DNA of 64,000 nucleotides from Allobosea sp. UNC402CLCol (lineage in GTDB: Bacteria > Pseudomonadota > Alphaproteobacteria > Rhizobiales > Beijerinckiaceae), in the NCBI RefSeq assembly GCF_000745475.1, contig NZ_JQJJ01000014.1:1-64000 (forward strand), read 5' to 3'. Positions 44,194 through 64,000 of this stretch are shown here, piece after piece; position 1 is the stretch's first letter, and every line of letters begins with the position of its first letter. A program made the translations under genes and the position numbers. The notes beneath the pieces were generated by a model. That model was not told the DNA's origin and searched no databases. It saw only the letters and a program-made list of their open reading frames with translations.

Positions 44194-44203
44194 GGCCGCC
44201 GCG

Positions 44204-45271: not shown

Positions 45272-45274
45272 GGC

Positions 45275-47857: not shown

Positions 47858-47880
47858 GCGGCCGGGCTGCGGAGGATCAG

Positions 47881-48909: not shown

Positions 48910-48946
48910 GCAGCGTTTGCCATCGCAAGACCGACCGGGAGTGATC

Positions 48947-50299
48947 ATGCCGAGCGCCATCGAACGTATCGCGGAGTGGAGCCGCACCGAACCGGCCTTC
49001 TCGCCGCTGGCCCGGCTACGAGCGCATCACGCCATCGCCGATACCGTGGGTTGCATGCTAGCCGGGGTCGGCGATCAGGCGACGCAGGCCGTGCGTCAGG
49101 CCTTCGCTTCCGGGATCGGCCCGCGGGGCGCTGCGGCGGTTGCGGGCGGTGGCAGGGTGACCGAGGCGATCGCCGCGCTGGTCAACGGCACGGCGGCGCA
49201 TGCGCTCGATTATGACGATAATTTCAGGCCGGGTATCACCCATGCCTCGGCGGTGCTGGTGCCGGCGCTGCTCGCGGTGGCGCAGGGGCGCGGGGCGAGC
49301 GGGCGGGTCTTCGTCGACGCCTATCTCGTCGGGCTGGAGGCGCAGGCCGCCGTCGGGCGCGGCATCAACCCGGCGCATTACACCATCGGCTGGCACGCGA
49401 CCTCGACGGTCGGCGCGATCGGGACGGCGGCGGGCACGGCCTGGCTGATGGGGCTCGACGGGGCGGGCATCGCCCGCGCGATGAGCGTTGCCGCCAGCAT
49501 GGCAGCCGGCCCGAAGGGACAGTTCGGTACGCCGGCAAAACCGCTGCATGCCGGGCTCGCGGCGCGCAATGCCGTCGATGCTGCTGCGCTCGCGGCAGCG
49601 GGGATGACCGGGCGCCTCGACATCCTGGAATGCCCGATGGGCTTTGCCGAATTGTTCGGCGACGACAGCGCCGCCGGCTGGGACAAGATGGTTCTGGCGT
49701 CGCCGCATGTCATCGAAAGCGATGGACTGACCCCGAAGCGCCATCCCTGCTGCGGCTCGACGCATCTTGCGGTCGATGCGATCCTCGACCTCAAGGCAAA
49801 AAACGGCTTCTCCGCCGCGGATGTCGAGGCGGTGGACACGCTGGTCGGCATCGCCAATGCGCGCAATCTCGCCTATCCCGATCCGCAGGACGAGATGCAG
49901 GGCCGCTTCTCGATGCATTACTGCGTCGCGCTCGCGCTCTTGCAGGACCGGCTTTCGTTGGCCGATTTCACGCCGGAAGCGGTCGCGCGCCCGGAGGTCC
50001 GGCGGCTGTTGCCGCTGACGGTGATGCGATCCTACGACAAGAGCGAGGAGGCGGCGGGGCGCCAGCCGCATCGCGTCACCATCAGCCTCAAGGACGGGCG
50101 CGTGCTCAAGGCCGATCGGCTGGAGGCGAAGGGTTCGATCGCCGATCCGTTCGACGATGCCGACCGGGAAGCGAAGTTCCGGGATTGTTGCGCCGGGATG
50201 CCGGGCGCCGCCGCGCTTTACGCCCGGCTCGCCGATATCGACGCCATGGCCGATCTCGACAGCTTGCTGTCGGAACCCGCGGAAGCCGGGCGCGCATAG
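48947..50299 (+). CDS. MmgE/PrpD family protein
   Basis: A 450-residue protein of the MmgE/PrpD fold (2-methylcitrate dehydratase and cis-aconitate decarboxylase relatives). Characteristic segments are HHAIADTVGCMLAGVGDQAT, VNGTAAHALDYDDNFRPG, GWHATSTVGAIGTAAGTAWL and KRHPCCGSTHLAVDAILDL. The ATG at 48947 follows GGGAG. No prpB or prpC lies near, so a role in propionate metabolism is not shown; association with a peptide importer suggests a small-acid dehydratase or isomerase. Its last 82 bases overlap the convergent LysR gene. Confidence 0.9.
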   Translation: MPSAIERIAEWSRTEPAFSPLARLRAHHAIADTVGCMLAGVGDQATQAVRQAFASGIGPRGAAAVAGGGRVTEAIAALVNGTAAHALDYDDNFRPGITHASAVLVPALLAVAQGRGASGRVFVDAYLVGLEAQAAVGRGINPAHYTIGWHATSTVGAIGTAAGTAWLMGLDGAGIARAMSVAASMAAGPKGQFGTPAKPLHAGLAARNAVDAAALAAAGMTGRLDILECPMGFAELFGDDSAAGWDKMVLASPHVIESDGLTPKRHPCCGSTHLAVDAILDLKAKNGFSAADVEAVDTLVGIANARNLAYPDPQDEMQGRFSMHYCVALALLQDRLSLADFTPEAVARPEVRRLLPLTVMRSYDKSEEAAGRQPHRVTISLKDGRVLKADRLEAKGSIADPFDDADREAKFRDCCAGMPGAAALYARLADIDAMADLDSLLSEPAEAGRA

Positions 50300-51252
50300 C
50301 CGCGTCGACTGACGGCAGGGCGGGGCGGATCGTCCGGGCGTGCTGGCTGGCCGTCATCTGCGATGGCGGCCCAGAACTGTTCGACGGGAAGGCGGCTCCG
50401 CTGCCTTGCCCGATAGAGCCGGATTTCGGCCGAGATGTACCATGAGGGGTCGGCCGCCGGCACGAGCTGGCCGCTGCGCAATTCCTCGACGACAAGGCTC
50501 TCGGGCACCCAGGCGACGCCATGTCCGGCCAGGACCATGGCCTTGAGGCCAACCGACATCGGATTCTCGTAGACGGTGACCAGCGGCGTCGGCCGCTCGG
50601 CGAAGAGCAAGGCGAGCCGGCGCGCGAAGAAGGAGGCGTTGCCATAGCTCAGCAGGCGCACCGGCGCATCGCCGCAGCGGAAAGCGTGGAGCGGCTCGCC
50701 GGCGCTATCGGGGATCGAGACGGGGATCGCTCGTTCGGCGCCGAGGTGGCGGTAGACGAAGTGTTCGGCGTCCAGTTCGGGCGGCACGGCCGGATGGGCA
50801 TAGGTCAGCAGGAAATCGCATTCGCCATGATTGAGCAGTGCGACATTGCCGTCGAAGGATGAGCGTTGATCGCAGAATCGCGTCTTCAGCGGACCGAGCT
50901 TGTCTTCGATGCGGCGCATCAGGCTGGGGAAATAGGTCAGGGACAGGGTGTTGAGCGTGGCGAAGGTCAGCGTCTCCGACTCGTCTTCGTGCAGCCGGCG
51001 GACCTCCCGACGCGCGTCCTGCACCTGCCTGAGGATGTCCTGGGCACGCGGGAGGAAGGTCCGGCCGGCTTCGGTGAGGCGGATCGGATAACTGCTGCGG
51101 TCGAACAGCGGCAGGCCGAGCCATTCCTCCAGCTGTTTGACCCGGCGGCTCAGGGCGGATTGCGTGATGTTCCGCTCAACGGCGGAACGCGAGAAGCTCA
51201 GCGTCGTCGACAGGCTCAGGATGTCTTCCAGCCACTTCAACTCCATTGCCAT
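50218..51252 (-). CDS. LysR-type transcriptional regulator
   Basis: A 344-residue LysR regulator. The N-terminal winged helix is ELKWLEDILSLSTTLSFSRS followed by QSALSRRVKQLEEWLGLPLF, and the effector-binding domain follows from about residue 95. It is about 40 residues longer than usual: the C-terminal tail (ARPDDPPRPAVSRRGYARPA) is read antisense to the end of the PrpD gene. It converges on the peptide-use genes and may regulate them, although its own promoter side faces the lactonase gene. A family-typical stop near residue 300 is absent. Confidence 0.9.
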   Translation of the reverse strand: MAMELKWLEDILSLSTTLSFSRSAVERNITQSALSRRVKQLEEWLGLPLFDRSSYPIRLTEAGRTFLPRAQDILRQVQDARREVRRLHEDESETLTFATLNTLSLTYFPSLMRRIEDKLGPLKTRFCDQRSSFDGNVALLNHGECDFLLTYAHPAVPPELDAEHFVYRHLGAERAIPVSIPDSAGEPLHAFRCGDAPVRLLSYGNASFFARRLALLFAERPTPLVTVYENPMSVGLKAMVLAGHGVAWVPESLVVEELRSGQLVPAADPSWYISAEIRLYRARQRSRLPVEQFWAAIADDGQPARPDDPPRPAVSRRGYARPASAGSDSKLSRSAMASISASRA

Positions 51253-51467
51253 GTCCTCCGCCGCTGCGGGCAGGATGGCATGGCTGCTCCAGCCACACCA
51301 GAAGTGGACAAGGCAAGGGAAGGGGGGCGTTGACGACGAACTCGCCCTGCCGTTGAACTTCGATGCGTCCGCTCGCGGCCATGCTCCCTCTATGGGCGGG
51401 AGCTGCCGTTTGAGCGGCTGCGCAACCCCAGGCTAACTGCCTGATCCCGGCCGAATGTCGGGATTCT

Positions 51468-52346
51468 TCATGCCCCGAACCGCATCTCCGGCAGGCCGCG
51501 AATGCCGAGATCGTAGATCGCGAAGAGGCTGCCGCGCAGCACGCCGTCGCCAGGGAAGCGCGGCAGCGGGGGCTTGGCCATCGAGGTCACGAAGAGGATG
51601 TCGAGCTTCGGGCCGCCGAACATCACGCTCGTCACCTTCTTGACCGGCATGTCGATGATGCGATCGACGCTGCCGTCCGGCGCATAGCGCACCAGCCGCC
51701 CGTCATAGACCAGCGCGTTCCAGAGATAGCCCTCGGCATCGACGGTCGAGCCGTCCGCCGCGCCACCCTTCGAGGTGTCGACCTTGGCGAAGACCCGCCG
51801 GTTGGTGGCGGCGCCGCTGTCGAGGTCGTAGTCATAGGCCCAGATCTCGCCGGACCAGGTATCCTGGAAATAGAAGGTCCTGCCGTCCGGGCTCCAGCAC
51901 GGACCGTTCGAGCAGACGATGCCGGTGTCGAGCTTCGTCACCTTGAAGTCGGTCGAGAGGCTGTAGAGCGCACCGTTGGCGCCTTCCTCCTGCGTGTCCA
52001 TCGAGCCGGCGACGAAGCGGCCGCGCTTGTCGACCTTGCCGTCGTTCAGGCGGTTGGCGGGCTGATCTGGCTCCGGGTCATGAATGAGCGTGACTTCGCC
52101 GGATTTGAAATCCAACGCGTGGAAGCCACGCTGCAGCGAGACGACCGCGCCTTGCCCATCCTTGCGCAGCGCCATCGAGCCGATCTTCTGCGGCACGTCC
52201 CAGGCCCGGATCTCGCGTCCGTCCACGGTCGCGCGGAAGACCCGGCCGTCGAAGGAATCGATCCAATAGAGCCGCTCCTGCTCCACGTCCCAGAGCGGGC
52301 CTTCGCCGAGCGTCGTCTTGACGTCGACCAGCACCTCGATGCGCAT
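51468..52346 (-). CDS. SMP-30/gluconolactonase family protein
   Basis: A 292-residue six-bladed propeller lactonase. The calcium/zinc ligands are expected at Glu of TTLGEGPLWD, Asn of CSNGPCWSPDG and Asp of AADGSTVDAEGYLW, all present. RLNDGKVDKRGRFVAGSMD is the usual substrate-loop segment. It would open a sugar lactone to the aldonic acid. It is the last gene of the seven-gene minus-strand operon, 24 bases after the BKACE gene. Confidence 0.93.
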   Translation of the reverse strand: MRIEVLVDVKTTLGEGPLWDVEQERLYWIDSFDGRVFRATVDGREIRAWDVPQKIGSMALRKDGQGAVVSLQRGFHALDFKSGEVTLIHDPEPDQPANRLNDGKVDKRGRFVAGSMDTQEEGANGALYSLSTDFKVTKLDTGIVCSNGPCWSPDGRTFYFQDTWSGEIWAYDYDLDSGAATNRRVFAKVDTSKGGAADGSTVDAEGYLWNALVYDGRLVRYAPDGSVDRIIDMPVKKVTSVMFGGPKLDILFVTSMAKPPLPRFPGDGVLRGSLFAIYDLGIRGLPEMRFGA

Positions 52347-52370
52347 GTTCGTCTCCTGCTCCGTGATGGT

Positions 52371-53300
52371 TCAGAACGCGACCTTGTCGCCGCCCTTGAG
52401 CGACAGCATTTCGCGGGCCTCGTCGGGTGTGGCGATCTCCAGCCCCAGCCCTTCCAGGATCAGCCGCACGCGGCGAACCTGATCGGCATTCGTCTCGGCG
52501 AGGCGCCCCGGCCCGAGCCAGAGGCTGTCCTCCAGCCCGACGCGGACATGCCCGCCCTGGGCCGCGGCGATGGCGGCGACATTCATCTGATTGCGACCCG
52601 CTCCGAGCACGGACCAGCGATACTGGTCTCCGAAGAGCCGGTCGGCTGTGCGCTTCATATGCGCGATGTCGTCGGGGTGGTTGCCGATGCCGCCCTGCAG
52701 CCCGAACACCGTCTGGATGAAGAGCGGCCCCTGCACCAGCCCGCGGTCGAGGAAGTATTTGAGATTGTAGAGATGGGCGGTGTCGTAGCACTCGAACTCG
52801 AAGCGCGTGCCGCTGCCGGCGCAGGTCGTCAGGATGTGCTCGATCTGCCCGAAGGTGTTGCGGAAAATGATCTCCTTGTTGGCGAGATAGGTCCGCTCCC
52901 AGTCGTGCTTCAGGTCCTTGAAGCGGTCGAGCATGCCGAAGAGGCCGAAATTCATCGAGCCGAGATTGAGCGAGGCCAGCTCCGGCTTGAAGGTCGCGAC
53001 CGGCTTCACGCGCTCCTCGATCGTCATGGTCGGGGCGCCGCCGGTGGTGATGTTGACGACGCAATCGCTGCGCTGGCGGATGATCGGCAGGAAGCGGGCG
53101 AAGGCCTCCGGAGTCTGGTCCGGCGCGCCGGTCTGCGGATCGCGGGCGTGAAGATGGACGATCGCAGCGCCGGCCTCGGCCGCGCCGATCGCCGCGTCCG
53201 CGATCTCCTCCGGCGTCACCGGCAGGTAGGGCGACATCGAGGGCGTATGGATCGCGCCGGTGACGGCGCAGGAGATGATGACCTTGCGGGCTTTCGCCAT
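52371..53300 (-). CDS. Beta-keto acid cleavage enzyme (BKACE, formerly DUF849)
   Basis: A 309-residue TIM-barrel enzyme of the 3-keto-5-aminohexanoate cleavage family. The start KVIISCAVTGAIHTPSMSPY, zinc-binding AAIVHLHARDPQTG and PDQTPEAFARFLPIIRQRSD match the family, as does GLQGGIGNHPDDIAHMKRTA. Family members condense a beta-keto acid with acetyl-CoA and split it into acetoacetate (or a homologue) and a new CoA ester. The substrate here is unknown; the neighbouring dehydrogenase would make a 3-keto acid. Confidence 0.93.
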   Translation of the reverse strand: MAKARKVIISCAVTGAIHTPSMSPYLPVTPEEIADAAIGAAEAGAAIVHLHARDPQTGAPDQTPEAFARFLPIIRQRSDCVVNITTGGAPTMTIEERVKPVATFKPELASLNLGSMNFGLFGMLDRFKDLKHDWERTYLANKEIIFRNTFGQIEHILTTCAGSGTRFEFECYDTAHLYNLKYFLDRGLVQGPLFIQTVFGLQGGIGNHPDDIAHMKRTADRLFGDQYRWSVLGAGRNQMNVAAIAAAQGGHVRVGLEDSLWLGPGRLAETNADQVRRVRLILEGLGLEIATPDEAREMLSLKGGDKVAF

Positions 53301-53309
53301 GATGGACTC

Positions 53310-54257
53310 CTATTCTCCGATGTCGCGCGCCGCGGCGCGCTTATGGGCGGCGAGCGCCATCAGGCGCCGGTCCCGCCAGATCTGGCGCTGGGCGAGGTCG
53401 TCGCGGGAGAGGCGCGCAGCGCGCTGGCCTTCGACCTCGTCCATCAGCGGCCCGCTCCAGTCGGCGCGGCGGCCGGCGAGCTCGGCGGCGATGCCGCTAT
53501 AGATGTGCTGGTAGCGCTGGGCGTAGTCACGCACGCCGCCGGGCGCATTGAGGTCGATCGTCTCGAACGGGCCGATGAAGGACCAGCGCAGCGCGAGCCC
53601 CTCGCGGATGCCGATATCGACATCCTCGACATCGGCGATGCCGTCGGCGACGAGCCGGAAGGCCTCGTCGAGCAGCGCGCCCTGCATCCGGTTCATGATG
53701 AAGCCGTCGATCTCGCGCTTCATCACCAGCGGCTGCTGTCCGCAGCCGCGCATGAAGGCGGCGGCCTTCTCGACCGTTTCCGGGGCCGTCCAGGGCGAGG
53801 GGCAGACCTCGACCGCCGGCACGAGATAGGGCGGGTTGATCGGGTGGCAGACGAGGCAGCGGCCGCGGCCCGCGACATGGTCCATGAAGCGTGAGGGCAG
53901 GATCGCGGAAGTCGAGCTGGCGATGACGGCCTGCGGCGGCGCCAGCCGGTCGAGATCGGTAAAGACCGCACGCTTGCTCTCGACGATCTCCGCCGTGCTT
54001 TCCTGCACATGGTCGGTGCCGGCGAGCGCCTCGTCGAGGGCGTCCACGGGTTGCAGCCGCGCCAGCACCTCGGCCGGCTCCTGGCCGTCGAGCAGGCCGT
54101 TGGCCGCGAGCTCGGGCAGGACGGACGCCGCGAATTCGAGCGCGGCACGCGGCGCCTTCGGATCGCGATCCCAGAGCCGGACGTCATGCCCGGCGCGGGC
54201 GAAGCTGACCGCCCAGGAGCGGCCGATCAGGCCGGAGCCGACGATGGTCGTTCTCAT
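53310..54257 (-). CDS. 3-hydroxyacyl-CoA dehydrogenase-like enzyme (L-gulonate 3-dehydrogenase/carnitine dehydrogenase type)
   Basis: A 315-residue NAD-dependent dehydrogenase. TIVGSGLIGRSWAVSFARAG is the Rossmann motif, ASSTSAILPSRF and CHPINPPYLVPAVEV contain the catalytic Ser/His region, and KREIDGFIMNRMQGALLDEA is followed by FIGPFETIDLNAPGG. These segments read like vertebrate lambda-crystallin (L-gulonate 3-dehydrogenase) and bacterial L-carnitine dehydrogenase, not like fatty-acid HADs, because the long second domain is missing. It would produce a 3-keto acid for BKACE. It overlaps the SDR gene by four bases. Confidence 0.9.
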   Translation of the reverse strand: MRTTIVGSGLIGRSWAVSFARAGHDVRLWDRDPKAPRAALEFAASVLPELAANGLLDGQEPAEVLARLQPVDALDEALAGTDHVQESTAEIVESKRAVFTDLDRLAPPQAVIASSTSAILPSRFMDHVAGRGRCLVCHPINPPYLVPAVEVCPSPWTAPETVEKAAAFMRGCGQQPLVMKREIDGFIMNRMQGALLDEAFRLVADGIADVEDVDIGIREGLALRWSFIGPFETIDLNAPGGVRDYAQRYQHIYSGIAAELAGRRADWSGPLMDEVEGQRAARLSRDDLAQRQIWRDRRLMALAAHKRAAARDIGE

Positions 54258-55033
54258 AGCGACTCCAGATTGCCGTCAACGGGGAAAGACTGGCCGGAGA
54301 GGTTGTTGCCGGCCGGCGTCAGCAGGAAGAGCGTCATCGCCGCGACGTCCTCGGCGTCGGTCATGCGGCGCAGCGAGATGCGCTGGAGATACTGCTCGCG
54401 CATCTCCGCGAACGATACGCCGACCTGGTCGGCGCGGGCCTGGATGACGCCGTCCATGCGCGGCCCCTTGATGATGCCGGGCAGGATGGCGTTGACGCGG
54501 ATATTGGCCGGGCCCAGCTCCTTCGCGAGCGACTGCGTCAGGCCGATGATGCCCCATTTCGCGGCGGAGTAGGGGGTGCGGAAGGCGTAGCCGAAGCGCC
54601 CGGCGGAGGACGACATGTTGACGATGGCGCCACCGCCCGCCGCCTTCAGCATCGGCACGGCAAGCCGCGTGCAGAGAAACTGGCCGGTCAGGCAGATGTC
54701 GATGGTGCGCCGCCACTCGCCCGGGTCGATCTCGTCGACGCCGCCGGTCGGCCCGGCGATGCCGGCATTGTTGATCAGCGCGTCGAGCCCGCCGAGCGTG
54801 GCCTGAGCCTCGTCGAACAGCCGCGCCACGCCGTCGTCATCCGCGACATTGCAGGTCGTCGCGCCGTGGCCGGGATGGGCGGCGCGGAAATCGGCGAGAT
54901 GCTTCTCGTCGATGTCGCAGATATGGACGCGTGCGCCGTTCTCGATCAGCAGATCGGCGATGGCACGGCCGATGCCGGAGGCGCCGGCCGTGACGACGAC
55001 GCGAAGGCCGGGCTTCAGGGCGAGTGCTGGCAT
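54254..55033 (-). CDS. Short-chain dehydrogenase/reductase (sugar dehydrogenase-like)
   Basis: A 259-residue classical SDR. It has VVVTAGASGIGRAIADLLIE (cofactor loop), NNAGIAGP, the catalytic Ser in MSSSAGRFGYAFRT, YSAAK and the LPGIIKGPRMDGVI lid region. An Asp-rich segment (ICDIDEKHL) after the first beta-alpha-beta unit suggests NAD rather than NADP. The stop overlaps the next gene by four bases, and the gene follows the permease by 14 bases. It probably oxidises a sugar or hydroxy acid. Confidence 0.92.
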   Translation of the reverse strand: MPALALKPGLRVVVTAGASGIGRAIADLLIENGARVHICDIDEKHLADFRAAHPGHGATTCNVADDDGVARLFDEAQATLGGLDALINNAGIAGPTGGVDEIDPGEWRRTIDICLTGQFLCTRLAVPMLKAAGGGAIVNMSSSAGRFGYAFRTPYSAAKWGIIGLTQSLAKELGPANIRVNAILPGIIKGPRMDGVIQARADQVGVSFAEMREQYLQRISLRRMTDAEDVAAMTLFLLTPAGNNLSGQSFPVDGNLESL

Positions 55034-55047
55034 CGTCTTGCGTCTCC

Positions 55048-57108
55048 TCAATGCGCGCGTTCGCGCAGCGCCACGACGGCGCCGAGCACCACGACGCCAT
55101 AGAGGATGGCGCGCGTGGCATAGGGCAGGGTGGTTCCGGCGAGCAGGGTCTGGAGCGCGGTCAGCAGCAGCACGCCGCCGAGCATGCCGAGATAGGAACC
55201 GCGCCCGCCGGTGATGAGCGCGCCGCCGACCACGACGACCGCGATCGAGGGCAGCAGGTAGTCGTCGCCCATGCCCAGGCTCGCCTGACCGGAGAAACCC
55301 GCGAGCATGATGCCGACCAGCGCGGCGCAGGCGCCCGAGAGCATGTAGACCTTGACCAGCGTCGCCTTGACCGGAACGCCGGAAAGCTCCGCCGGGCGCT
55401 CGCCATTGCCGATGGCGTAGATCCGCCGGCCGAAGACGGTGCGTCCGAGCAGGATCGAGGCACCGGCGGCGAAAAGCACCACGAGCGGCACGACCGGCGT
55501 CACGCCGAAGATTTTCGCGGTCATGAACCAGCGCAAGGCGGGCGAGGCGAAGCCGTTTGGCGTCCCGCCGGAATAGACCAGCGCCGCTCCTTGCAGGATG
55601 CCGTTCATTGCCAGCGTCATCACGATCGGCGAGAGGCCGAGCGCGACGATGCCGAGCCCGTTGACGAGGCCGATCAGCGCGCCGAGCGCGAGCACGGCGG
55701 GCACGGCATAGACCAGCGCGGCATCCGAGCCCGAGAGCAGGCCGGCGCAGAGAATGCCGGAGAGGCCGATGGTCCAGGGCAGCGACAGGTCGAGCCCGCC
55801 GGTCAGGATCACCGCGCCCTGTCCGAGCGCGAGGACGGCGAGAAAGCAGCCGAGCACGATCAGCGAGTCGTAATAGGGCCAGGAGACAATCGTGTTGCCG
55901 AGCACGAACTGCGTCACCACGAGGACCGCGACAAAGCACAGATAGGCTGGCACCGCGTTGCGCAGCGCTTCGGCATGGCGGCGCCACCAGGCTGGGTGCT
56001 CGATCGCCGGATCGTGCATCGGCAGGGCGATGCGGGCAGGGGGCAGATCGAGCTGGCGCGGCAGGCGCCCGGCCCGGCGGGCGGCGGCGCGAGCAAGACC
56101 CTGGCGCAGCGTGCGGGCCAGCACGGAATCGCGCGCCAGGGAGGAGGCGAGGACCGCCAGCACGAGGATCAGGCCCTCGACGACCGAGGAGTAGAAGGCG
56201 GGCACGTCGAGCACGAGCAGGATGTTGACGACGAGCATCAGCACATAGGCGCCGAAGATCGTGCCGACGATGCCGCCGCGCCCGCCGCCCAGCACGGTGC
56301 CGCCCAGCACCACGGCCGCGAACATCTGAAGCAGCATCGGATTGCCGACGAGCGGATCGCCCGAGCCGGTTTGGGCCGTAATGAAGACGCCCGCCAGACC
56401 ATAGAGCCCGCCCGCCAGCACATAGGCGAAGAACTCGTGCAGCCGGACGCTGAGCCCTGCGGCGCGGGCGGCCTCCCGGTCGGAGCCCAGGGCCGGCAGG
56501 GCCTTGCCGAAGAGCGTGTTTTTCAAGGCAAGCCACAGGCCGATGAGAGCCGCCAGCAGCAGCACCGGCATCGGCAGCAGGCCGGGGATGGCGTCGCCGG
56601 TCAGGGCCTGCGCGAAGCTGCCGGGAATCTGCCCGCCGGGCTTGTCCATCACGAGGAGGGTGACGCCTTGCAGGATGAACATGGTGGCGAGCGTCACCAC
56701 GATGGGCTGGAGCCTCAAGCCCGCGATGAACAGGCCGTTGAAGGCGCCGGTCGCCGCGCCGACACCGATGCCGGCGAGCGTCCACAGCAGCATCGAGCCG
56801 GGGCTGTCCTGCATCTGCCCGGCGAGCGTGACGTTGACGAGCGAGATGACGGCAGCGGCCGACAGGTCGAAGCCGCCGGTCAGCACCACGATGGTTTGGC
56901 CGCTCGCTGCGATGGCGAGCGTCGCGCCGCCGGCAGCCAGCGTGCCGAGTTCGTAATAGCCGAGTGTGCCGCCGCTGAGCCAGCGCACGAGTCCGAGGCA
57001 GAGCAGGAAGACGCCGATCGCGATCAGCGGTCCGCGCAGGCGGTCGAGCCAGCCGCGGACGAGGGAGGTGCTTGCGGCCTGCGGCGCCGTGGCAGCGATC
57101 GCGCTCAC
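55048..57108 (-). CDS. ABC transporter permease with two fused RbsC-type domains
   Basis: A 686-residue membrane protein consisting of two complete ribose-type permease domains in one chain. Domain 1 (about 1-315) has ASGQTIVVLTGGFDLSAAAV and GLYGLAGVFITAQTGSGD. A polar Arg-rich linker (RQGLARAAARRAGRLPRQLD, about 320-380) follows. Domain 2 has LGQGAVILTGGLDLSLPWTI and AIGNGERPAELSGVPVKATL. Each half repeats the TGGxDLS motif. Family permeases are normally about 330 residues and work as dimers, so this is a covalent pseudo-dimer. The GTG start at 57108 overlaps the ATPase stop (GTGA). Confidence 0.92.
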   Translation of the reverse strand: MSAIAATAPQAASTSLVRGWLDRLRGPLIAIGVFLLCLGLVRWLSGGTLGYYELGTLAAGGATLAIAASGQTIVVLTGGFDLSAAAVISLVNVTLAGQMQDSPGSMLLWTLAGIGVGAATGAFNGLFIAGLRLQPIVVTLATMFILQGVTLLVMDKPGGQIPGSFAQALTGDAIPGLLPMPVLLLAALIGLWLALKNTLFGKALPALGSDREAARAAGLSVRLHEFFAYVLAGGLYGLAGVFITAQTGSGDPLVGNPMLLQMFAAVVLGGTVLGGGRGGIVGTIFGAYVLMLVVNILLVLDVPAFYSSVVEGLILVLAVLASSLARDSVLARTLRQGLARAAARRAGRLPRQLDLPPARIALPMHDPAIEHPAWWRRHAEALRNAVPAYLCFVAVLVVTQFVLGNTIVSWPYYDSLIVLGCFLAVLALGQGAVILTGGLDLSLPWTIGLSGILCAGLLSGSDAALVYAVPAVLALGALIGLVNGLGIVALGLSPIVMTLAMNGILQGAALVYSGGTPNGFASPALRWFMTAKIFGVTPVVPLVVLFAAGASILLGRTVFGRRIYAIGNGERPAELSGVPVKATLVKVYMLSGACAALVGIMLAGFSGQASLGMGDDYLLPSIAVVVVGGALITGGRGSYLGMLGGVLLLTALQTLLAGTTLPYATRAILYGVVVLGAVVALRERAH

Positions 57109-58685
57109 GAGAGGGCCTCCAGCGTCGAAACCTGTTGCGCGGCAAGTGCGCCGGCTTCGCTCCCGAGCATGGCGCGCAGGATCGCATCCTCCGTGATCGC
57201 GTCGCCTTCCAGCCGCGCCGCTGCCTTGCCCCGGTAGAGCACGATCACGCGGTCGCAGAGATGGTCGAGTTCGGCCGTCTCGGTCGAGTGGAACAGGATC
57301 GAGCCGCCGGCAGCCGCGAATTCTCGCATCAGCGCATAGATCTCGTTCTTGGTGCCGACATCGATGCCGCGCGTCGGGTCGAACAGCAGCAGGATGCGGC
57401 TTTCGGCGAAGAGCCATTTCGCCACGGCGATCTTCTGCTGATTGCCGCCGGAGAAGGCCTTCACCGGCGTCCAGAGCGCGCGCATCTGTACGTTGAGGCG
57501 AGCCATGACGCGGGCAACCGCCGTTTCCTCGCGCTTTCGGTCGACGAAGCCGAAGCGGCTGTAGCGCTCGATCGCCGGCAAGGAGATGTTGCGCCGGCCG
57601 TCGAGCTTGAGGAAGAGCGCCTCCGTCTTGCGGTCCTCCGGCACGAGGCCGATCCCGATCCGCGCATCGAGAGCATCGCGCGGCGAGGTCAGGCTGACCG
57701 GACGGCCGTCGATGCGGATTTCGCCGCGGCTCTCGGCCGTGCCGAAGAGGGCCGAGAACAATTCCAGCTGGCCCATGCCCTGGAGGCCGGCGACGCCGAG
57801 GATCTCGCCGCGTCGCAGCCCGAATGACAATCCGTCGAGGCGGTTGCCGACCGAAAGCTCGGTGGCCGCCAGCACGGGTTCCTCGGAAAGCCTGCTGCGC
57901 GGCGGGCGCGGTGGAAAGGAATGGCCGCCGCTGCCGCCGGCGATGAGGCCGATCAGCTCCTCGTCCCCGACATCGGATAGCGGGCGCGTCGCGATATGCT
58001 TGCCGCCGCGCAGGACGGTGACGCGGTCGCAGAAGGCGCGGACCTCACGCATGCGGTGCGAGATGAAGACGGTGGTGACGCCTTGAGCCTTGCCCCTGGC
58101 GATGATCGTGCCGAGCCAGTCGATATCGCTGCCCGACAATGTCGAGGTCGGCTCGTCGAGCAGCAGGATGCGGGGCTTGCGGAACAGCGCGCGCGCGATC
58201 TCGATCTTCTGCCGCTCGTTGAGATCGAGGTCGCGGATCTCCGAGCGTGGGTCGATGGCGCTGAGGCCGAGAGCATCAAGATGTTCCTCGACCGTGCGGC
58301 GCGCCTCCGCCCGCCGGATCAGGCCGAGCGGCCCGCGCGGCGGGGTCGGCAGCAGCATGTTGTCGAGTACGCTGAGATCGCGGACGAGGCTGAGTTCCTG
58401 GAAGGCGGTGCGGATGCCGCAGCGGTGCGAGGCGGCCGGCGAATGCAAATCCGCGCGCTCGCCGAAGATGTCGAACCCGCCCGTGGTGGGTCGCACCAGC
58501 CCGGAGAGCAGCTTGACCAGCGTCGACTTGCCGGCGCCGTTCTCGCCGAGCAGCGCATGGGTGTCGCCGGCCATGATGTCGAAGCCGACATCGTTGACGG
58601 CGATAGTCGCGCCATAAACCTTGCGGATGTCGCGGGCGGCGATCGCGACAGGGGCGCCGTCAGGGGAAATCTCGCGCTGAAGCAC
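57105..58685 (-). CDS. Sugar-type ABC transporter ATP-binding protein with two nucleotide-binding domains
   Basis: A 526-residue ATPase from the GTG at 58685 (GGAAGGA upstream). The first domain is intact: GENGAGKSTLVKLLSG, signature LNERQKIEIARAL and LLLDEPTSTLSGSD. The second is degenerate: its P-loop reads VAGLQGMGQLELF without Lys, and Walker B reads ILLLFDPTRGIDVG where most relatives have LDEPTRG, although the signature SGGNQQKIAVAKWL is kept. Degenerate second P-loops are usual for RbsA-type proteins; loss of the DE pair is less usual. An ATG further upstream (58778) would read through a palindromic repeat and is rejected. Confidence 0.92.
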   Translation of the reverse strand: MLQREISPDGAPVAIAARDIRKVYGATIAVNDVGFDIMAGDTHALLGENGAGKSTLVKLLSGLVRPTTGGFDIFGERADLHSPAASHRCGIRTAFQELSLVRDLSVLDNMLLPTPPRGPLGLIRRAEARRTVEEHLDALGLSAIDPRSEIRDLDLNERQKIEIARALFRKPRILLLDEPTSTLSGSDIDWLGTIIARGKAQGVTTVFISHRMREVRAFCDRVTVLRGGKHIATRPLSDVGDEELIGLIAGGSGGHSFPPRPPRSRLSEEPVLAATELSVGNRLDGLSFGLRRGEILGVAGLQGMGQLELFSALFGTAESRGEIRIDGRPVSLTSPRDALDARIGIGLVPEDRKTEALFLKLDGRRNISLPAIERYSRFGFVDRKREETAVARVMARLNVQMRALWTPVKAFSGGNQQKIAVAKWLFAESRILLLFDPTRGIDVGTKNEIYALMREFAAAGGSILFHSTETAELDHLCDRVIVLYRGKAAARLEGDAITEDAILRAMLGSEAGALAAQQVSTLEALS

Positions 58686-58751
58686 GGGCGGCCGTCCTTC
58701 CTGCGTTGGCGGTAGCGGGATGCCGGGCGACGTGGCGCCGCCGGGCGCTGG

Positions 58752-58799
58752 AGCACCGGACCGAAAAGTGGGACCCACTCTTCGGAAAAGTCCGATGCT
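58752..58799. repeat. Rhizobiales-type double palindrome within the operon
   Basis: Inner arms CCGAAAAGTGGG (58761-58772) and CCCACTCTTCGG (58774-58785) and outer arms AGCACCGGA (58752-58760) and TCCGATGCT (58791-58799) pair with single mismatches. It lies in the 166-base gap between the binding-protein and ATPase genes, where such elements stabilise upstream mRNA or terminate partially. Similar wording occurs widely in Rhizobiales genomes (recollection). Confidence 0.75.
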
Positions 58800-58851
58800 G
58801 AACGAGCAGGACCGTCATGCCGCGCCCGACCCGGGCGCGGCGATCCTGCGA

Positions 58852-59973
58852 TCAGTTCTCGGGCTGGCCGACGAGGGCGGCGTTGAGACCGATCTCGGGC
58901 GTCTCGCTCGAGAAGATCGAGGCGAACCAGCCGGGATTGGTCACGATCGAGGGCTTGAAGGCGTTGCAGCCGGCCTTCATCTCATCCCAGGTCCCTTCCT
59001 GGCAGAGCTTGATCGTCTCGTTGGTGACGACCGGTAGCGGCAGGACGGTCTTCTTCGGCACGTCCTTGCCTTCCAGTTTCGCCACGGCGAGCTTCAGCGC
59101 CAGCGCGCCGGAATAGGGCGGCGAGGCGTAGGAGATGCGCGGCGCGGCCATCGGCTTGTAGGTGCCGTTGGCGCCTTCGACCTCGGTGCCGGTGGGCAGC
59201 ATCTGCACACGCCCGCCATTGGAGCCTTCGCCCGCGCAGGGCTTCAGCTTGTCCTCGGGGATGCCGGCCTCGATCTGCATGGTATTGGCGGTGTAGCAGC
59301 CGACCTGCATCCAGAGACCGTCGATTTGGTCCCATTTGCGGGTGGCCAGGATCTTCGACAGCTCCGTGCGCGCGACCGCCTGGCTCCACATGCCGACCGC
59401 CTCGTTGACGATCTTGATGTCGGGATGCTTGGCAAAGACCTCTTTTGCCGCCTTGGTGCGCAGCGTGTCGACCGAAGTGCCGGGCACGCCGGTGATCGAG
59501 ACGATGTTGCCCTTGCCGTTCAGCTTCTTGACCAGCCATTCGGCGGTGACGCGCCCGGCCTCCTCCTGATCGATCGCGACGTTGTAGGCGCAGGGCTCGG
59601 TGATCTCGCCGTCATAGGCAATGACGGTCACGCCCTTCTCGCAGGCGTTCTTCACCGCGGCGTTGAGCGCCGTCGGCGAGATCGGGAAGACGATGATCGC
59701 CTTGGCGCCGGCCTGGACCATGGCGTTGATCTGCTGGATCTGGCGCTGGGCGTTGGGGCCGGCGACCTGGACCTGCAGGTCGACCTTGTCGGCCATCGTC
59801 TTGGACGCCGCCATGGCCTTGATCATGTTGGCGGCCTCACCCTGCCAATCATTGCCGATATAGCTCATCGACAGGAAAATCTTGTGCTTGGCCTGGGCCT
59901 GCGCGGCGGAGACTCCGGCTGCGGACAAGGCCAGCGCGGCGGCAGCAGCCATCAAGTGCTTCTTTTTCATCAT
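58852..59973 (-). CDS. Sugar-type ABC transporter substrate-binding protein (periplasmic binding protein type 1)
   Basis: A 373-residue binding protein. The signal peptide (MKKKHLMAAAAALALSAAGV, cleavage around AQAQA) is followed by KIFLSMSYIGNDWQGEAANM and NAQRQIQQINAMVQAGAKAI, the periplasmic binding protein family 1 pattern of ribose-like systems. GGGGAGGA precedes the first ATG of a double ATG (59973/59970). It is the first gene of the operon. Ligand unknown; the catabolic genes downstream point to a sugar or hydroxy acid. Confidence 0.93.
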   Translation of the reverse strand: MMKKKHLMAAAAALALSAAGVSAAQAQAKHKIFLSMSYIGNDWQGEAANMIKAMAASKTMADKVDLQVQVAGPNAQRQIQQINAMVQAGAKAIIVFPISPTALNAAVKNACEKGVTVIAYDGEITEPCAYNVAIDQEEAGRVTAEWLVKKLNGKGNIVSITGVPGTSVDTLRTKAAKEVFAKHPDIKIVNEAVGMWSQAVARTELSKILATRKWDQIDGLWMQVGCYTANTMQIEAGIPEDKLKPCAGEGSNGGRVQMLPTGTEVEGANGTYKPMAAPRISYASPPYSGALALKLAVAKLEGKDVPKKTVLPLPVVTNETIKLCQEGTWDEMKAGCNAFKPSIVTNPGWFASIFSSETPEIGLNAALVGQPEN

Positions 59974-60137
59974 GAGCGTCCTCCCCGACGCGGTGGCGTT
60001 CAATCGTCAGGGCGCCTTGACCGGCGCCTCGTTTCTTTTGATCAAAGATCACAAATCATATATCAATGCAATGCGGATTTGATGTCGAGCCCGCGACCGC
60101 TATGGTCGCCCCGACGAACACCTTGGATTTCAAGACG
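59974..60137. promoter_or_regulatory. Divergent promoter and probable GntR operator region
   Basis: An AT-rich island in a GC-rich gap. It holds the palindrome TTTGATCAAA (60037-60046) followed by a second GATCA (60047-60051) and CATATATCAAT, then the regulator's possible starts. FadR/GntR-type operators are short palindromes of this size. Which strand each promoter uses is not clear. Confidence 0.5.
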
Positions 60138-60815
60138 ATGAGCCTCGTGCGCCCTCAGGAGCTGCCTTACTCACCCATCTCCCGCGCGACGATCCAGGAG
60201 CATGTCTATGGCCGGATCCGGGAGATGATCCTGAACGGCGACATCGAGCCGGGCCGTACGGTGACGGTGAGCAGCCTGTCCGAGGCCTTTGGCGTCAGCG
60301 CCATGCCGGTGCGGGAGGCGCTGCACCGGCTCGTCGCCGAAAAGGCCCTGACCGTGGTGGCTGGCCGCTCCGTCGGCATCCCGCCGCTCAGCGCCGAACG
60401 ACTCGACGACCTCAGGCGCGTCCGCTGCGAGATCGAGGGCATGGCCACGGAGTGGGCCGCTGCGGCGATCACGCCGGCGCAATTGCGCCATCTCGAAGAG
60501 CTGATTGCGATCATGGACGCCGCGAAGGCCGAGAAGGACCGCGCCCGCTATGTGCCGGCCAATCGCGACTTCCACTTCACCATCTACAAGGCCGCCGCCT
60601 CGCCGGCCCTGATGGCCATCATCGAGTCGCTCTGGCTGCAGATCGGGCCCTACATCAACCTGCTCAAAGAGACCGACAATTGGACGAGCGCCAATCGCGA
60701 CCACAAGGCGATCCATGCGGCGTTGCTGGGCAAGGATGCCGCGGCGGCCAGACAATCCCTCCAAGCCGATATCGAGCAAGCGGCGAAAAGCCTGGCCGGG
60801 CTTCTCGATATCTGA
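60138..60815 (+). CDS. GntR-family (FadR subfamily) transcriptional regulator
   Basis: The ATG at 60138 gives 225 residues (MSLVRPQELPYSPISRATIQ), normal for the FadR subfamily; in-frame ATGs at 60099 and 60066 are alternatives, and none has a strong ribosome-binding site. The winged helix is AFGVSAMPVREALHRLVAEK, and the all-helical FCD effector domain has DLRRVRCEIEGMATEWAAA and the metal-ligand-like RDFHFTIYKAAASPALM and NRDHKAIHAAL. It is divergent from the sugar-type operon and is its likely repressor. Confidence 0.9.
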   Translation: MSLVRPQELPYSPISRATIQEHVYGRIREMILNGDIEPGRTVTVSSLSEAFGVSAMPVREALHRLVAEKALTVVAGRSVGIPPLSAERLDDLRRVRCEIEGMATEWAAAAITPAQLRHLEELIAIMDAAKAEKDRARYVPANRDFHFTIYKAAASPALMAIIESLWLQIGPYINLLKETDNWTSANRDHKAIHAALLGKDAAAARQSLQADIEQAAKSLAGLLDI

Positions 60816-61140
60816 GCCGCGGGCGGCTCTCCTCGTTACGGCTGACCCATCCGAGATACGTAGGCGGCTCCTTGCAGACGCGCTGCGCGCAGTAGGGCGC
60901 GTTCGTCCACATGCGGCATCGGGATTGCGCAACGTTTGCGGGGAGGGCCCAGCCGCCAGTGGCCTCTCGCTCGTCGCCCGGAAGCAGGGTTGCCTTTTGT
61001 CTCGCCTGACGTCCGGCCCCGAGCCGAGCCGAGCAGGGCGTCGGCCTGTCTGCCCCACGCTTGCCACCACCTGCATGGCGTTTCCATCCCGAGAGCCGGT
61101 ATGGCGATATTGACAAGATCGCCAGCGCACAGCAGCATTG
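60816..61140. other. Intergenic region between gntR and the ROK gene
   Basis: No gene is supported. Most of the stretch is GC-rich with no clear reading frame of likely coding quality. Near its end TTGACA (61110-61115) is a good -35 sequence, with CAGCAT 17 bases further (61133-61138) as a possible -10, just before the TTAC palindrome. Confidence 0.4.
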
Positions 61141-61153
61141 TTACATAAAGTAA
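61141..61153. promoter_or_regulatory. TTAC-N5-GTAA palindrome 1 (candidate ROK operator)
   Basis: TTACATAAAGTAA lies 20 bases upstream of the ATG of the ROK gene, just past the candidate promoter at 61110-61138. It differs at one base from the second site at 61382-61394. Binding by the adjacent ROK repressor is inferred. Confidence 0.55.
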
Positions 61154-61173
61154 AAATAAACTCGGGAGGATGC

Positions 61174-62361
61174 ATGCGGGAGCCGCGAAGCCGGCGGGAA
61201 ACGCGATCGGCTGTCCTGCGCTATCTCTGGTGCTCCGGCGGCTCGTTTCGCCCCGCATTGGCCGATCATGTCGGGCTGACCGATGCGAGCATCTCGCGCA
61301 TCGTCGCCGAGCTGAAATCCGAGCGGCTGATCGACGAGTCGAAGCGCACCGCGCCTTACCAGGGCGGTCCGAGCTCCTTTCTTACATTAAGTAACGATCT
61401 CTATGTCGGCACGATCGAGTTCTCCGGCAGCCGTGTCCATATCGGCGTCGGGTCGCTGACCGGCGAGATCCGCTTTTCCGAATGGCTGGATTTGCCGGAC
61501 GGCGCAGAGCCGGAAACGGTGAGGTCGACCTATCGCCGCGCTCTTCATCAGCTCACCGATCATCTGCACCGGGCGGGCATCCGGCTTTGCCAGCTCGCGG
61601 TGTCGATCCCGGGCTATCATGAGGATCTGCGCGCCAATCCGATCATCGCGCTCGACCCCGCCGAGCTCCTGAGGGAGATCCAGGCCGCACTGCCTTCGGT
61701 GCCGCTGCTCGCGGCGAATTCGATCGTGACCCGCGCCGTCGCCCATCGGCTGAAGCTCGGTGTCGATCTTGCCGGCGGCCCCTATTTCTACACCTTCGTC
61801 GGCCATGGCGTGGCCGCCGCCCTGGTCGATGACTTCGCTTCGAGCGGGGAGGTGGCTGCCTGCGAGATCGGCCATATGGTGCTCGATCCCCGCGGGCCCC
61901 GCTGCCGCTGCGGCCATTCCGGCTGTCTCGAGGCCTATGTGTCCACGGCGGCCGTCGCGCCGGCCATCGGTCTGCGCGAGCAGGATTTGCTGGCGATGGA
62001 CGAATGGCAGGCGGGCCGGCTCAAACTGTCGACCCGCGCGCAGGCCGACCTCACGGCGCGTTTGGCGCGCCTCGGACACGCCATCGGCAATGCGCTCAAC
62101 CTGACGCCGATCCGACGGGTCGTGGTGGCCGGCTGGCCGGCGGAGCTGGGCGAAAAGATGCATGCCAGCGTGGTCGGCGGCATCGAGGCCAGCCTGTTCG
62201 GCGGAGCCGCAGCCGTGAACCTCACCTTCGCGAATGCGGAATTGGGGCGGGAGCCGGCCGCCGGGCTGGCGCTCGCCACCCACGCCTATCTGCAACGGGG
62301 CGCGATGCGACCCGCGGAAGCGGCCGAGAACAGGGCCGCGCATCACCTCATCGAACGATAA
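61174..62361 (+). CDS. ROK-family transcriptional regulator
   Basis: A 395-residue repressor of the NagC/Mlc type. From the ATG at 61174 (GGGAGG upstream) an N-terminal winged helix (LADHVGLTDASISRIVAELK) is followed by a ROK sugar-kinase-like domain. The zinc motif CRCGHSGCLEAY is intact (CxCGxxGCxE). The effector-binding GHGVAAALVDDFASSGEV segment replaces the kinase-type sequence, so it should bind a sugar without phosphorylating it. It lies upstream of a family 5 binding protein, which may be its target. Confidence 0.9.
   Translation: MREPRSRRETRSAVLRYLWCSGGSFRPALADHVGLTDASISRIVAELKSERLIDESKRTAPYQGGPSSFLTLSNDLYVGTIEFSGSRVHIGVGSLTGEIRFSEWLDLPDGAEPETVRSTYRRALHQLTDHLHRAGIRLCQLAVSIPGYHEDLRANPIIALDPAELLREIQAALPSVPLLAANSIVTRAVAHRLKLGVDLAGGPYFYTFVGHGVAAALVDDFASSGEVAACEIGHMVLDPRGPRCRCGHSGCLEAYVSTAAVAPAIGLREQDLLAMDEWQAGRLKLSTRAQADLTARLARLGHAIGNALNLTPIRRVVVAGWPAELGEKMHASVVGGIEASLFGGAAAVNLTFANAELGREPAAGLALATHAYLQRGAMRPAEAAENRAAHHLIER
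61382..61394. promoter_or_regulatory. TTAC-N5-GTAA palindrome 2 inside the ROK gene
   Basis: TTACATTAAGTAA encodes part of the protein (LTLSN region) yet repeats the upstream palindrome with one change. The site centres are 241 bases apart. It uses rare AT-rich codons in a GC-rich gene, suggesting selection at the DNA level. Confidence 0.5.
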
Positions 62362-62371
62362 GGGGAGGACA

Positions 62372-63937
62372 ATGAGTCTGAAAACAGTGACGGTCGCGCT
62401 TTTCGCCGGTGCCATGCTCGTGTTGACGGGGCCGGCCATCGCCGAGAGCGTTCTCAAGGTCAAACCGTCCGGGGACGTGAAGCTGCTGGATCCGCTCCTC
62501 GGCTCGGATTCCATGGCCCGCAATTTCGGCTACATGGTCTACGACACGCTGTTCGCGGTGGACGACAAGCTGGCGATCAAGCCGCAAATGGTCGAAAGCT
62601 GGGACATCTCGGCCGATGGCAAGGTGTGGACCTTCGTCCTGCGCGATGGCCTCGCTTTCAGCGACGGCCAGCCCGTGACGGCTGACGACGTGATCGCCTC
62701 GCTGAAGCGCTGGAGCGTCAACGACAGCATGGGGCAGCAGCTCAACCAGCGTGGTGCGAGCTGGCAGGCGGTCGATGCGAAGACGGTCCGCCTGACGCTG
62801 ACCTCGCCCTGGGGAATGGTGCTGGACGCCCTCGGCAAGCCAGGCGCGCCCGTGCCGTTCATCATGCCGGCCCGCGTCGCTTCGGCGACGCCGCCCAACC
62901 AGGCGGTGACAGATCACACCGGCTCCGGCCCGTTCGTTTTCAAGAAGGACGAATGGCTGGCCGGCGCCCGGCTGGTGTTCACCAGGAACGCTGGATACAA
63001 GCCCCGCCCGGAGGCGCCGGCCGGCCTCTCCGGCGGCAAGGTGGTCAAGGTCGATCGTGTCGAATGGCAGATCATCCCGGACCAGCAGACCGCGATCAAC
63101 GCCCTGATCAAGGGTGAACTCGATATCAGCGAGGAGATTCCCGGCGATCTCATTCCGCTCGCCAAGGCGTCGAAGGACATCGCTCTCGAGCGCCAGGACG
63201 ATATCGGCGTCGCCCAGCAGATCCGTATCAACTCGACCCAGCCGCCATTCGACAATCCGAAGCTGCGGCAGGCCCTGCTCCATGCCGTCGACGGTGCGGA
63301 GTTCCTCTCCGCGGTGATCGACGATCCGAGCCTCGGCAAGCCCTGCCGCTCCTTCTACGTCTGCTCGTCTCCCTATTTCACCGAGGCCGGCTTTCCAGCG
63401 GTCAATCTCGACAAGGCCAAGGCCCTCCTGAAGGAAGCCGGCTATGACGGCACTCCGGTGGTGCTGCTCGACGCCACCGAGAATGCCAATATCCACGCTT
63501 TCACCATGGTGGCCGAAGCCTTGCTGAAGAGCATCGGCTTCAAGACCGATGTGCAGGCGATGGATTGGGCGACGGTCGTCGCCCGCCGGGCCAGCAAGGA
63601 GCCGGTCGGCAAGGGCGGCTGGTCGATCTTCATCTCGGGGCCGGGCGGGCTCGACATGATGGAGCCGGTCAGCCATCTCGGCCTTCGCTCGAACTGCGAG
63701 AAGGCCTGGTTCGGCTGGCCCTGCGATGCCGATATCGAACAGATGCGGGCCGCTTTTTCCGATCTTTCGGACGGCGCGCAGCGCAAGGCGCTGGCGGAGA
63801 AGATCCAGCTGCGCGCGGCGCAGACCGTTCCCTATGTCCCGATCGGCGTCCAATATCAGATCCGGGCCTATCGCACTGATCTGACCGGGCTCCTGACCCC
63901 GCCGGCGCCGGTCTACTGGAACATCGCCCGCAAATAG
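62372..63937 (+). CDS. ABC transporter substrate-binding protein, family 5
   Basis: A 521-residue binding protein with signal peptide (VTVALFAGAMLVLTGPAIA, then ESV). The segments KLLDPLLGSDSMARNFGYMV, IKPQMVESWDISADGKVWTF and TADDVIASLKRWSVNDSMGQ are typical of family 5. AGGGGAGGA precedes the ATG, and the gene follows the ROK regulator by 10 bases. Permease and ATPase genes probably continue past the right edge. The C-terminus (PAPVYWNIARK) is complete. Confidence 0.93.
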   Translation: MSLKTVTVALFAGAMLVLTGPAIAESVLKVKPSGDVKLLDPLLGSDSMARNFGYMVYDTLFAVDDKLAIKPQMVESWDISADGKVWTFVLRDGLAFSDGQPVTADDVIASLKRWSVNDSMGQQLNQRGASWQAVDAKTVRLTLTSPWGMVLDALGKPGAPVPFIMPARVASATPPNQAVTDHTGSGPFVFKKDEWLAGARLVFTRNAGYKPRPEAPAGLSGGKVVKVDRVEWQIIPDQQTAINALIKGELDISEEIPGDLIPLAKASKDIALERQDDIGVAQQIRINSTQPPFDNPKLRQALLHAVDGAEFLSAVIDDPSLGKPCRSFYVCSSPYFTEAGFPAVNLDKAKALLKEAGYDGTPVVLLDATENANIHAFTMVAEALLKSIGFKTDVQAMDWATVVARRASKEPVGKGGWSIFISGPGGLDMMEPVSHLGLRSNCEKAWFGWPCDADIEQMRAAFSDLSDGAQRKALAEKIQLRAAQTVPYVPIGVQYQIRAYRTDLTGLLTPPAPVYWNIARK

Positions 63938-64000
63938 GCCTCCGGCGCTCGGCCCTGCCACAATTCCCGGAGCGCCTGCTGCCTCGCATCGCCGGCAGCG

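Follow-up and report, generated by a model that had tools for sequence, protein, structure and literature searches.

A seven-gene operon in Allobosea sp. UNC402CLCol, together with a divergent gene for a GntR regulator, appears to be a new version of the known deoxyribonate breakdown route. The genes lie at positions 51468-60815 of a 64,000-nucleotide stretch of DNA (contig NZ_JQJJ01000014.1, positions 1-64,000, assembly GCF_000745475.1), which we refer to as the window. They encode an ATP-binding cassette (ABC) importer of the CUT2 (ribose-type) family, a short-chain dehydrogenase/reductase (SDR), a lambda-crystallin-like dehydrogenase, a BKACE enzyme, and an SMP-30 lactonase. From comparisons of sequence, we propose with moderate confidence that the operon imports and degrades a derivative of a C5 2-deoxy sugar, probably a 2-deoxy-pentonolactone, by using two C3 dehydrogenases and BKACE.

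In the proposed route, the CUT2 importer would take up a neutral derivative of a 2-deoxy C5 sugar, with a 2-deoxy-pentonolactone as the likeliest candidate, and the SMP-30 protein would open the lactone to yield a 2-deoxy-pentonate. C3 would be oxidized in an NAD-type reaction by either the SDR (one C3 configuration) or the lambda-crystallin-like enzyme (the other), with both giving the same 3-keto acid. BKACE would then use acetyl-CoA to cleave this acid to acetoacetate and glyceryl-CoA. Acetoacetate would be converted to acetyl-CoA, genes elsewhere in this organism would hydrolyze glyceryl-CoA and phosphorylate the resulting glycerate, and the GntR protein would regulate the operon through an operator with a TGATCA core. 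Our observations comprise the gene content, order, and families, the aligned catalytic positions, the SDR subfamily, the operator core, and the association of the lactonase with the importer. From these we infer each reaction, the substrate, and the stereochemical split between the two dehydrogenases. An initial annotation made from the letters of the DNA had likewise joined lactonase, 3-dehydrogenase, and BKACE into one coherent route, and this idea is supported, as is the conserved linkage described below.

The closest known system was described by Price et al. (2019) in Pseudomonas simiae, Paraburkholderia bryophila, and Burkholderia phytofirmans (PMC6365646). In that report, a BKACE was proposed to cleave 2-deoxy-3-keto-ribonate to glyceryl-CoA and acetoacetate on the basis of mutant fitness in the three bacteria. 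Genetic evidence indicates that deoxyribose or deoxyribonate is broken down by an SDR, BKACE, and glycerate kinase, joined in P. simiae by a lactonase, and the authors demonstrated in vitro that deoxyribonate is oxidized to a ketodeoxyribonate (PMC6365646). The action of BKACE on a sugar-derived 3-keto acid, which the initial annotation had regarded as unusual, was thus already proposed (PMC6365646). The same annotation had listed the pathway as a candidate undescribed one. The chemistry is not wholly undescribed; for the operon itself, our searches of open-licence PMC papers found no published description of the seven-gene arrangement.

A conserved seven-gene operon

The features of the locus are as follows, with the genes of the operon listed from the promoter-proximal end.

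59974..60065, no strand assigned: divergent promoter region containing an operator-like palindrome, TTGATCAA (motif counts across promoters)
60066..60815, plus strand: divergent GntR/FCD regulator (Pfam GntR and FCD)
58852..59973, minus strand: CUT2 (ribose-type) periplasmic solute-binding protein (SBP), 373 amino acids (Pfam Peripla_BP_4, 169 bits)
58686..58851, minus strand: SBP-ATPase intergenic stretch with strong hairpins, including a palindrome at 58757-58794 (RNA folding z-score)
57105..58685, minus strand: sugar-type ABC ATPase with two ABC domains (Pfam ABC_tran, two stretches), with a GTG codon chosen among the possible starts
55048..57108, minus strand: fused double permease with two RbsC-type domains, 686 amino acids (Pfam BPD_transp_2, two stretches)
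54254..55033, minus strand: SDR of the 5UNL/deoxyribonate dehydrogenase subfamily (adh_short_C2, 5unl match, and tree)
53310..54257, minus strand: lambda-crystallin-like 3-hydroxy-acid dehydrogenase (Pfam 3HCDH_N and 3HCDH; PRK06129 at 463 bits, cut-off 347)
52371..53300, minus strand: BKACE (Pfam BKACE, PF05853, 367 bits)
51468..52346, minus strand: SMP-30 family lactonase (Pfam SGL, 276 bits)

All eight genes have open frames. Their coordinates, frames, and Pfam and NCBIfam matches agree with the earlier description of seven tightly packed minus-strand genes and a divergent GntR gene. NCBIfam holds no model for the SMP-30 protein, and the families of the other genes were confirmed by both Pfam and NCBIfam. 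The spacing is operon-like, with 4-bp overlaps at the ATPase/permease and SDR/dehydrogenase junctions and gaps of 14 bp (permease-SDR), 9 bp (dehydrogenase-BKACE), and 24 bp (BKACE-SMP-30). A longer gap of 166 bp separates the SBP gene from the downstream ATPase gene. When positions 58690-58855 were folded, the z-score was -4.49 and none of 200 shuffles was as stable. The palindrome at 58757-58794 has one match across the window with up to three mismatches allowed, and no Rfam match at gathering scores was found in positions 48000-64000.

We examined 180 stretches of DNA, most of which were collected by similarity to window genes and thus do not form a random sample. The exact order SBP, ATPase, fused permease, SDR, lambda-crystallin-like dehydrogenase, BKACE, and SMP-30 occurs in 74 of them, representing 69 distinct loci (BKACE DNA less than 98% identical) with the window included. 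A divergent GntR gene was scored at 45% identity or more in 62 of the 69. The grouping of these genes is therefore conserved and chance is excluded, and the linkage that had been predicted for other genomes is borne out. The same order with a divergent GntR gene is present on annotated plasmids of Phyllobacterium zundukense, Agrobacterium tumefaciens Q15/94, and Rhizobium ruizarguesonis TP15 (L004, L005, and L006), and in each of them the permease is likewise encoded by one gene of 2.0-2.1 kb. When flanking frames were clustered across loci, no additional pathway gene proved to be shared by the CUT2 clusters.

A search of genome contigs with a dehydrogenase profile built from a five-sequence alignment kept 80 of 243 relatives. 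A dehydrogenase match at E ≤ 1e-90 was obtained in 31 of 397 sampled genomes of the order, including the genome studied here, and the complete gene set is present in 17 of the 30 other regions, some of which are cut by contig ends. No match at this threshold was found in the 3 genomes of the same genus and 16 of the same family that were listed, which makes for a patchy distribution. A genome of another class (L182) carries one complete set of the seven genes, for which no GntR gene was scored. In 369 sampled genomes of another class, the SDR search at E ≤ 1e-80 gave three matches, and the gene order of P. simiae was absent from all of them.

Co-occurrence of lactonase and importer

The importer genes have the features of the CUT2 family: a Peripla_BP_4 SBP, a double ATPase, and a BPD_transp_2 permease, here with its two permease domains fused. 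The SBP is 60-89% identical to 19 cluster orthologs. Its predicted fold (pLDDT 75.8, pTM 0.77) resembles those of ribose, fructose, and arabinose binding proteins at 24% identity or less, and only generic sugar-binding relatives were found among the 50 matches listed. PDB matches of the SMP-30 protein are 7plb and regucalcin.

Gene associations were counted in 112 BKACE loci that have 3 kb flanks on both sides (of 127 distinct loci), and the counts depend on the distance and identity limits used. The lactonase and the CUT2 SBP occur together in 67 loci, neither occurs in 38, and one only is found in 7. Four of the latter have a lactonase in a stretch that is cut before the SBP, and the three with an SBP all have a lactonase farther off. 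In comparison, 24 of the 97 SDR-positive loci have the SDR beside BKACE with neither a near lactonase nor a CUT2 importer, and TRAP, major facilitator superfamily (MFS), or branched-chain-type transporters adjoin the SDR in some of these 24. Thus, the lactonase goes with the importer rather than with the SDR, suggesting that a lactone is taken up.

CUT2 importers typically transport neutral sugars, and the predicted ribose-type fold of the SBP would also suit the import of a free aldose such as 2-deoxyribose. If so, the SDR would be a sugar 1-dehydrogenase, the SMP-30 protein would open the lactone it makes, and the lambda-crystallin-like enzyme would be the sole C3 dehydrogenase, consistent with the 11 of 112 loci where this enzyme accompanies BKACE without a near SDR. 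The relationships of the SDR bear on this alternative.

Two putative C3 dehydrogenases

A PDB search with the window SDR returned 5unl at 296 bits, followed by the next chain at 135 bits, whereas with the SDR of locus L161 the sole chain at E ≤ 1e-34 was 5unl, at 327 bits. Clusters with the order AraC/BKACE-MFS-SDR-SDR on plasmids of Paraburkholderia largidicola and Caballeronia grimmiae match the order of H281DRAFT_00640-00644 in P. bryophila, and in four such clusters the last SDR shares 54-56% identity with that of the window. In a tree of 106 rows, the cluster SDRs and the deoxyribonate-type SDRs form one clade of 89 rows (support 100/98), outside of which long branches leave the deeper branching uncertain. 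The deoxyribonate-type side of this tree also takes in the SDR from the CUT2 cluster of Lichenicoccus (97/88). Membership in this subfamily and the TGATCA operator core indicate that the SDR is more likely a C3 dehydrogenase than a lactone-making C1 dehydrogenase. We therefore regard the import of a free aldose as rather doubtful: its 1-dehydrogenase would belong to a subfamily that contains the deoxyribonate-cluster SDR, and would accompany BKACE in the 24 loci with neither a near lactonase nor a CUT2 importer. The same observations make it improbable that the SDR forms a lactone, as had been suggested in the initial annotation.

The best PDB match of the other dehydrogenase is lambda-crystallin (3ado), with which its Ser, His, Glu, and Asn positions align; these residues have catalytic roles in lambda-crystallin. 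Lambda-crystallin is L-gulonate 3-dehydrogenase, and the family acts on L-3-hydroxy acids. Both dehydrogenases are near BKACE in 88 of the 112 loci, and the remainder comprise 9 with the SDR alone, 11 with the lambda-crystallin-like enzyme alone, and 4 with neither, given that the dehydrogenase lies farther off in L012 and L158 and that the subfamily SDR is outside the limits used in L008, L010, L073, and L120. Each enzyme can accompany a BKACE alone. We propose that both are C3 dehydrogenases with opposite preferences for configuration, where the lambda-crystallin type would be stereo-complementary to the SDR. The starred branches of the dehydrogenase tree force at least 11 changes of transporter label, and the BKACE tree 3, which suggest that the core enzymes switched transporters repeatedly.

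Plasmids of Salipiger (L009, 3295-9930) and Microvirga (L010, 4191-10867) carry a lambda-crystallin-like dehydrogenase and BKACE with a branched-chain-type importer that includes a gene annotated as ATP-binding protein/permease. These loci perhaps represent a sister route for another 3-hydroxy acid.

The window dehydrogenase also matches carnitine 3-dehydrogenase models, and a carnitine-like substrate had been among those suggested for the pathway. Catabolism of such a quaternary amine by a 3-dehydrogenase and BKACE is barely credible here, as the scores of 188 and 170 bits are far under the respective cut-offs of 592 and 414, for which reason we rejected carnitine, and a sugar-type importer and an SMP-30 lactonase are present.

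BKACE family assignments

The nearest structure to the window BKACE is 8rio, BKACE15 of Paracoccus denitrificans (521 bits). NCBIfam model NF053538 (3,5-dioxohexanoate cleavage) scores 543.6 bits against a cut-off of 430, and 3,5-dioxohexanoate is among the confirmed substrates of BKACE15 in the excerpts of PMC11961710. A polyketide or phloroglucinol-type route through this compound is nevertheless highly improbable. Seven of eight other BKACEs from varied clusters, two of the deoxyribonate type included, also pass the model, and therefore its name does not discriminate and is probably too specific; we rejected it as substrate evidence. Likewise, a sugar importer and an SMP-30 protein do not fit such a route.

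A second BKACE in the Allobosea genome (L133, contig C8, 5037-9141) groups with the AraC-MFS deoxyribonate-type BKACEs (100/100). As named from reading the sequence, its flanking genes encode a cyclase-like protein, a beta-propeller lactonase-like protein, and a branched-chain-type binding protein.

Downstream genes and the identity of the substrate

Genes that follow the operon in two relatives provide clues to its products. On the Agrobacterium Q15/94 plasmid, these encode a chemoreceptor, a glycerate kinase, and a homolog of 3-hydroxyisobutyryl-CoA hydrolase (HIBCH; PRK05617 at 426 bits, cut-off 274). In R. ruizarguesonis TP15 they encode a chemoreceptor, LarA, LarC, a LarE-like protein, LarB, a glycerate kinase, and an HIBCH homolog (445 bits), and CoA-transferase A/B, thiolase, and HupE/UreJ protein genes are near this set. 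The two hydrolases are 68% identical, whereas the 21 remaining plasmid records that passed the limit reach 50-55%. Among the other cluster flanks examined, none of these downstream genes was found except a CoA-transferase and a thiolase in the Lichenicoccus flanks. Elsewhere in the Allobosea genome there are one glycerate kinase homolog (48%) and one HIBCH homolog (42%).

The BKACE mechanism specifies which carbons go to acetoacetate and which to the acyl-CoA. The CoA-transferase and thiolase of the relatives point to acetoacetate as a product, and hence to an unsubstituted C2, whereas the glycerate kinase points to a C3 acyl product, and hence to a 2-deoxy C5 acid. This inference of the substrate from downstream genes draws on two plasmids. 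Lambda-crystallin's identity as L-gulonate 3-dehydrogenase, with 3ado as the closest PDB relative of the window enzyme, would instead favor an aldonate with a 2-hydroxyl, such as L-gulonate, L-arabinonate (whose C3 and C4 configurations fit), or the uronate-derived acid of the initial annotation. However, BKACE would then yield 2-hydroxyacetoacetate, yet the relatives carry acetoacetate-handling 3-oxoacid CoA-transferase and thiolase genes. Such a 2-hydroxy aldonate fits poorly, is very unlikely to be the substrate, and was rejected on the basis of these genes.

For a 2-deoxy-pentonolactone as the substrate, the downstream genes offer candidates for later steps. The excerpts of GapMind (2022) list the glyceryl-CoA hydrolase of the deoxyribonate pathway as unknown (PMC9007349), and the HIBCH homolog is a candidate for it. 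The glycerate kinase and LarA genes of the relatives are candidates for an L-glycerate branch. The R. ruizarguesonis LarA scores 340 bits, short of the 460-bit cut-off for lactate racemase. At the site that corresponds to Thr359 of LarA1 (counted on the 5huq alignment) it carries Gln, and the excerpts of a LarA survey tie the residue at this site to glycerate preference (PMC11770544). The broad-spectrum LarAIp, whose preference is for lactate and 2-hydroxybutyrate rather than L-glycerate, likewise has Gln at this site, so this residue is not decisive for glycerate. A LarA of this type neighbors glycerate kinase in Rhodovastum as well. In Phyllobacterium A18/3m (L178, 8992-14763) and Rhizobium leguminosarum (L179, 9001-14806), LarA and lar accessory genes instead have branched-chain-type importers and an NAD(P)-dependent oxidoreductase as neighbors, and the Phyllobacterium oxidoreductase matches 3-hydroxyisobutyrate-dehydrogenase domains.

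The L preference of the lambda-crystallin family, together with LarA, would fit an L-configured or mixed substrate, at least in the Rhizobium relative. A fuller scheme, which we consider speculative and unlikely in its entirety, is a stereo-complementary branch for 2-deoxy-pentonolactones of several configurations, the L series included. After entry of the lactones through CUT2, opposite C3 epimers would be converted to one 3-keto acid, BKACE would release L- or D-glyceryl-CoA, the HIBCH-type enzyme would be the missing hydrolase, and a nickel-dependent LarA homolog would racemize L-glycerate before glycerate kinase acts.

Operator motifs and points that weigh against the proposal

Among 72 distinct CUT2-cluster promoters, TGATCA is present in 64 (shuffle mean 6.1, random-stretch mean 8.9) and TTGATCAA in 46 (means 0.4 and 0.6), where descent relates the promoters such that these counts overstate independence. 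The GntR operator of Price et al. (2019), GTGATCAC, has a TGATCA core (PMC6365646). It is found upstream of GntR genes in 7 of 11 related loci, of which L012 and L158 are near-copies; two of the remaining loci have TTGATCAA or CTGATCAA, and two have neither.

Several points weigh against assigning the operon to a deoxyribonate-like route. First, GTGATCAC occurs in only 2 of the 72 CUT2-cluster promoters (0.5 in shuffles, 0.7 in random stretches) and is far rarer than TTGATCAA, so the regulators of the CUT2 and deoxyribonate clusters may sense different ligands. Second, in the flanks examined, only 2 of the 69 clusters have a glycerate kinase or HIBCH homolog next to the operon. Third, the CUT2-cluster BKACEs and dehydrogenases are not monophyletic in our trees, and the window BKACE shares 54-57% identity with the AraC-MFS type compared to 65-67% with BKACEs of other clusters. 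Fourth, SDR enzymes readily switch substrate at 55% identity, and to our knowledge CUT2 importers are not established as carriers of lactones. Finally, the tie to the P. simiae system is drawn from Paraburkholderia and Caballeronia gene order, and Price et al. neither fixed which carbon is oxidized nor had direct proof of BKACE cleavage (PMC6365646).

Neighboring genes

Positions 42556-50299 of the window encode a peptide-type ABC importer (family 5 SBP, permeases, and ATPases), after which come genes for a beta-lactamase-fold protein and an MmgE/PrpD protein, with a LysR gene adjoining. On the other side, directly beside the GntR gene, positions 61138-63937 encode a ROK-family regulator and then a family 5 solute-binding protein.

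Significance

Our proposal would link many operons, mostly from Hyphomicrobiales such as Mesorhizobium in these searches, to the turnover of deoxy sugar acids. These compounds can arise from damaged or decaying DNA, and deoxyribonate is the oxidized sugar of DNA. At present, the operon genes are annotated, for example, as 3-keto-5-aminohexanoate cleavage protein or as 3-hydroxyacyl-CoA dehydrogenase. The HIBCH homolog provides a concrete candidate for an enzyme listed as a gap in the excerpts of GapMind (PMC9007349). Similarly, the R. ruizarguesonis locus points to a possible physiological function of glycerate-active LarA racemases, which the excerpts of the LarA survey leave to be determined (PMC11770544).

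Comparison with known systems

The window dehydrogenase resembles lambda-crystallin/L-gulonate 3-dehydrogenase (3ado) in family, two-domain structure, and aligned catalytic positions, but it belongs to the bacterial PRK06129 group and is linked to BKACE. The window BKACE, like BKACE15, is a full-length PF05853 member, and 8rio is its nearest solved structure. BKACE15 has no known physiological substrate in the excerpts of its report (PMC11961710), whereas the window gene is part of a sugar-type operon. The R. ruizarguesonis LarA resembles glycerate-active LarA racemases, as excerpted in PMC11770544, in having Gln at the Thr359 equivalent. Unlike this relative, the Allobosea genome gave no LarA match, in a search that lacked a positive control such that the empty answer shows little.

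Several features distinguish the window operon from the deoxyribonate pathway. A CUT2 ABC importer takes the place of the MFS transporter, a lambda-crystallin-like dehydrogenase is added, the operon has no molybdenum deoxyribose dehydrogenase, and the operator flanks differ. Also, the window SDR is only about 55% identical to the deoxyribonate-type SDRs of Paraburkholderia and Caballeronia. The two systems nonetheless share a PF05853 BKACE and an SDR in one cluster, where the SDR subfamily is judged from clusters with the published gene order, and, as in P. simiae, the window has a lactonase (SMP-30) and a GntR regulator whose putative operator has a TGATCA core. Furthermore, glycerate kinase, which is required in the deoxyribonate pathway, is linked to the operon in two relatives.

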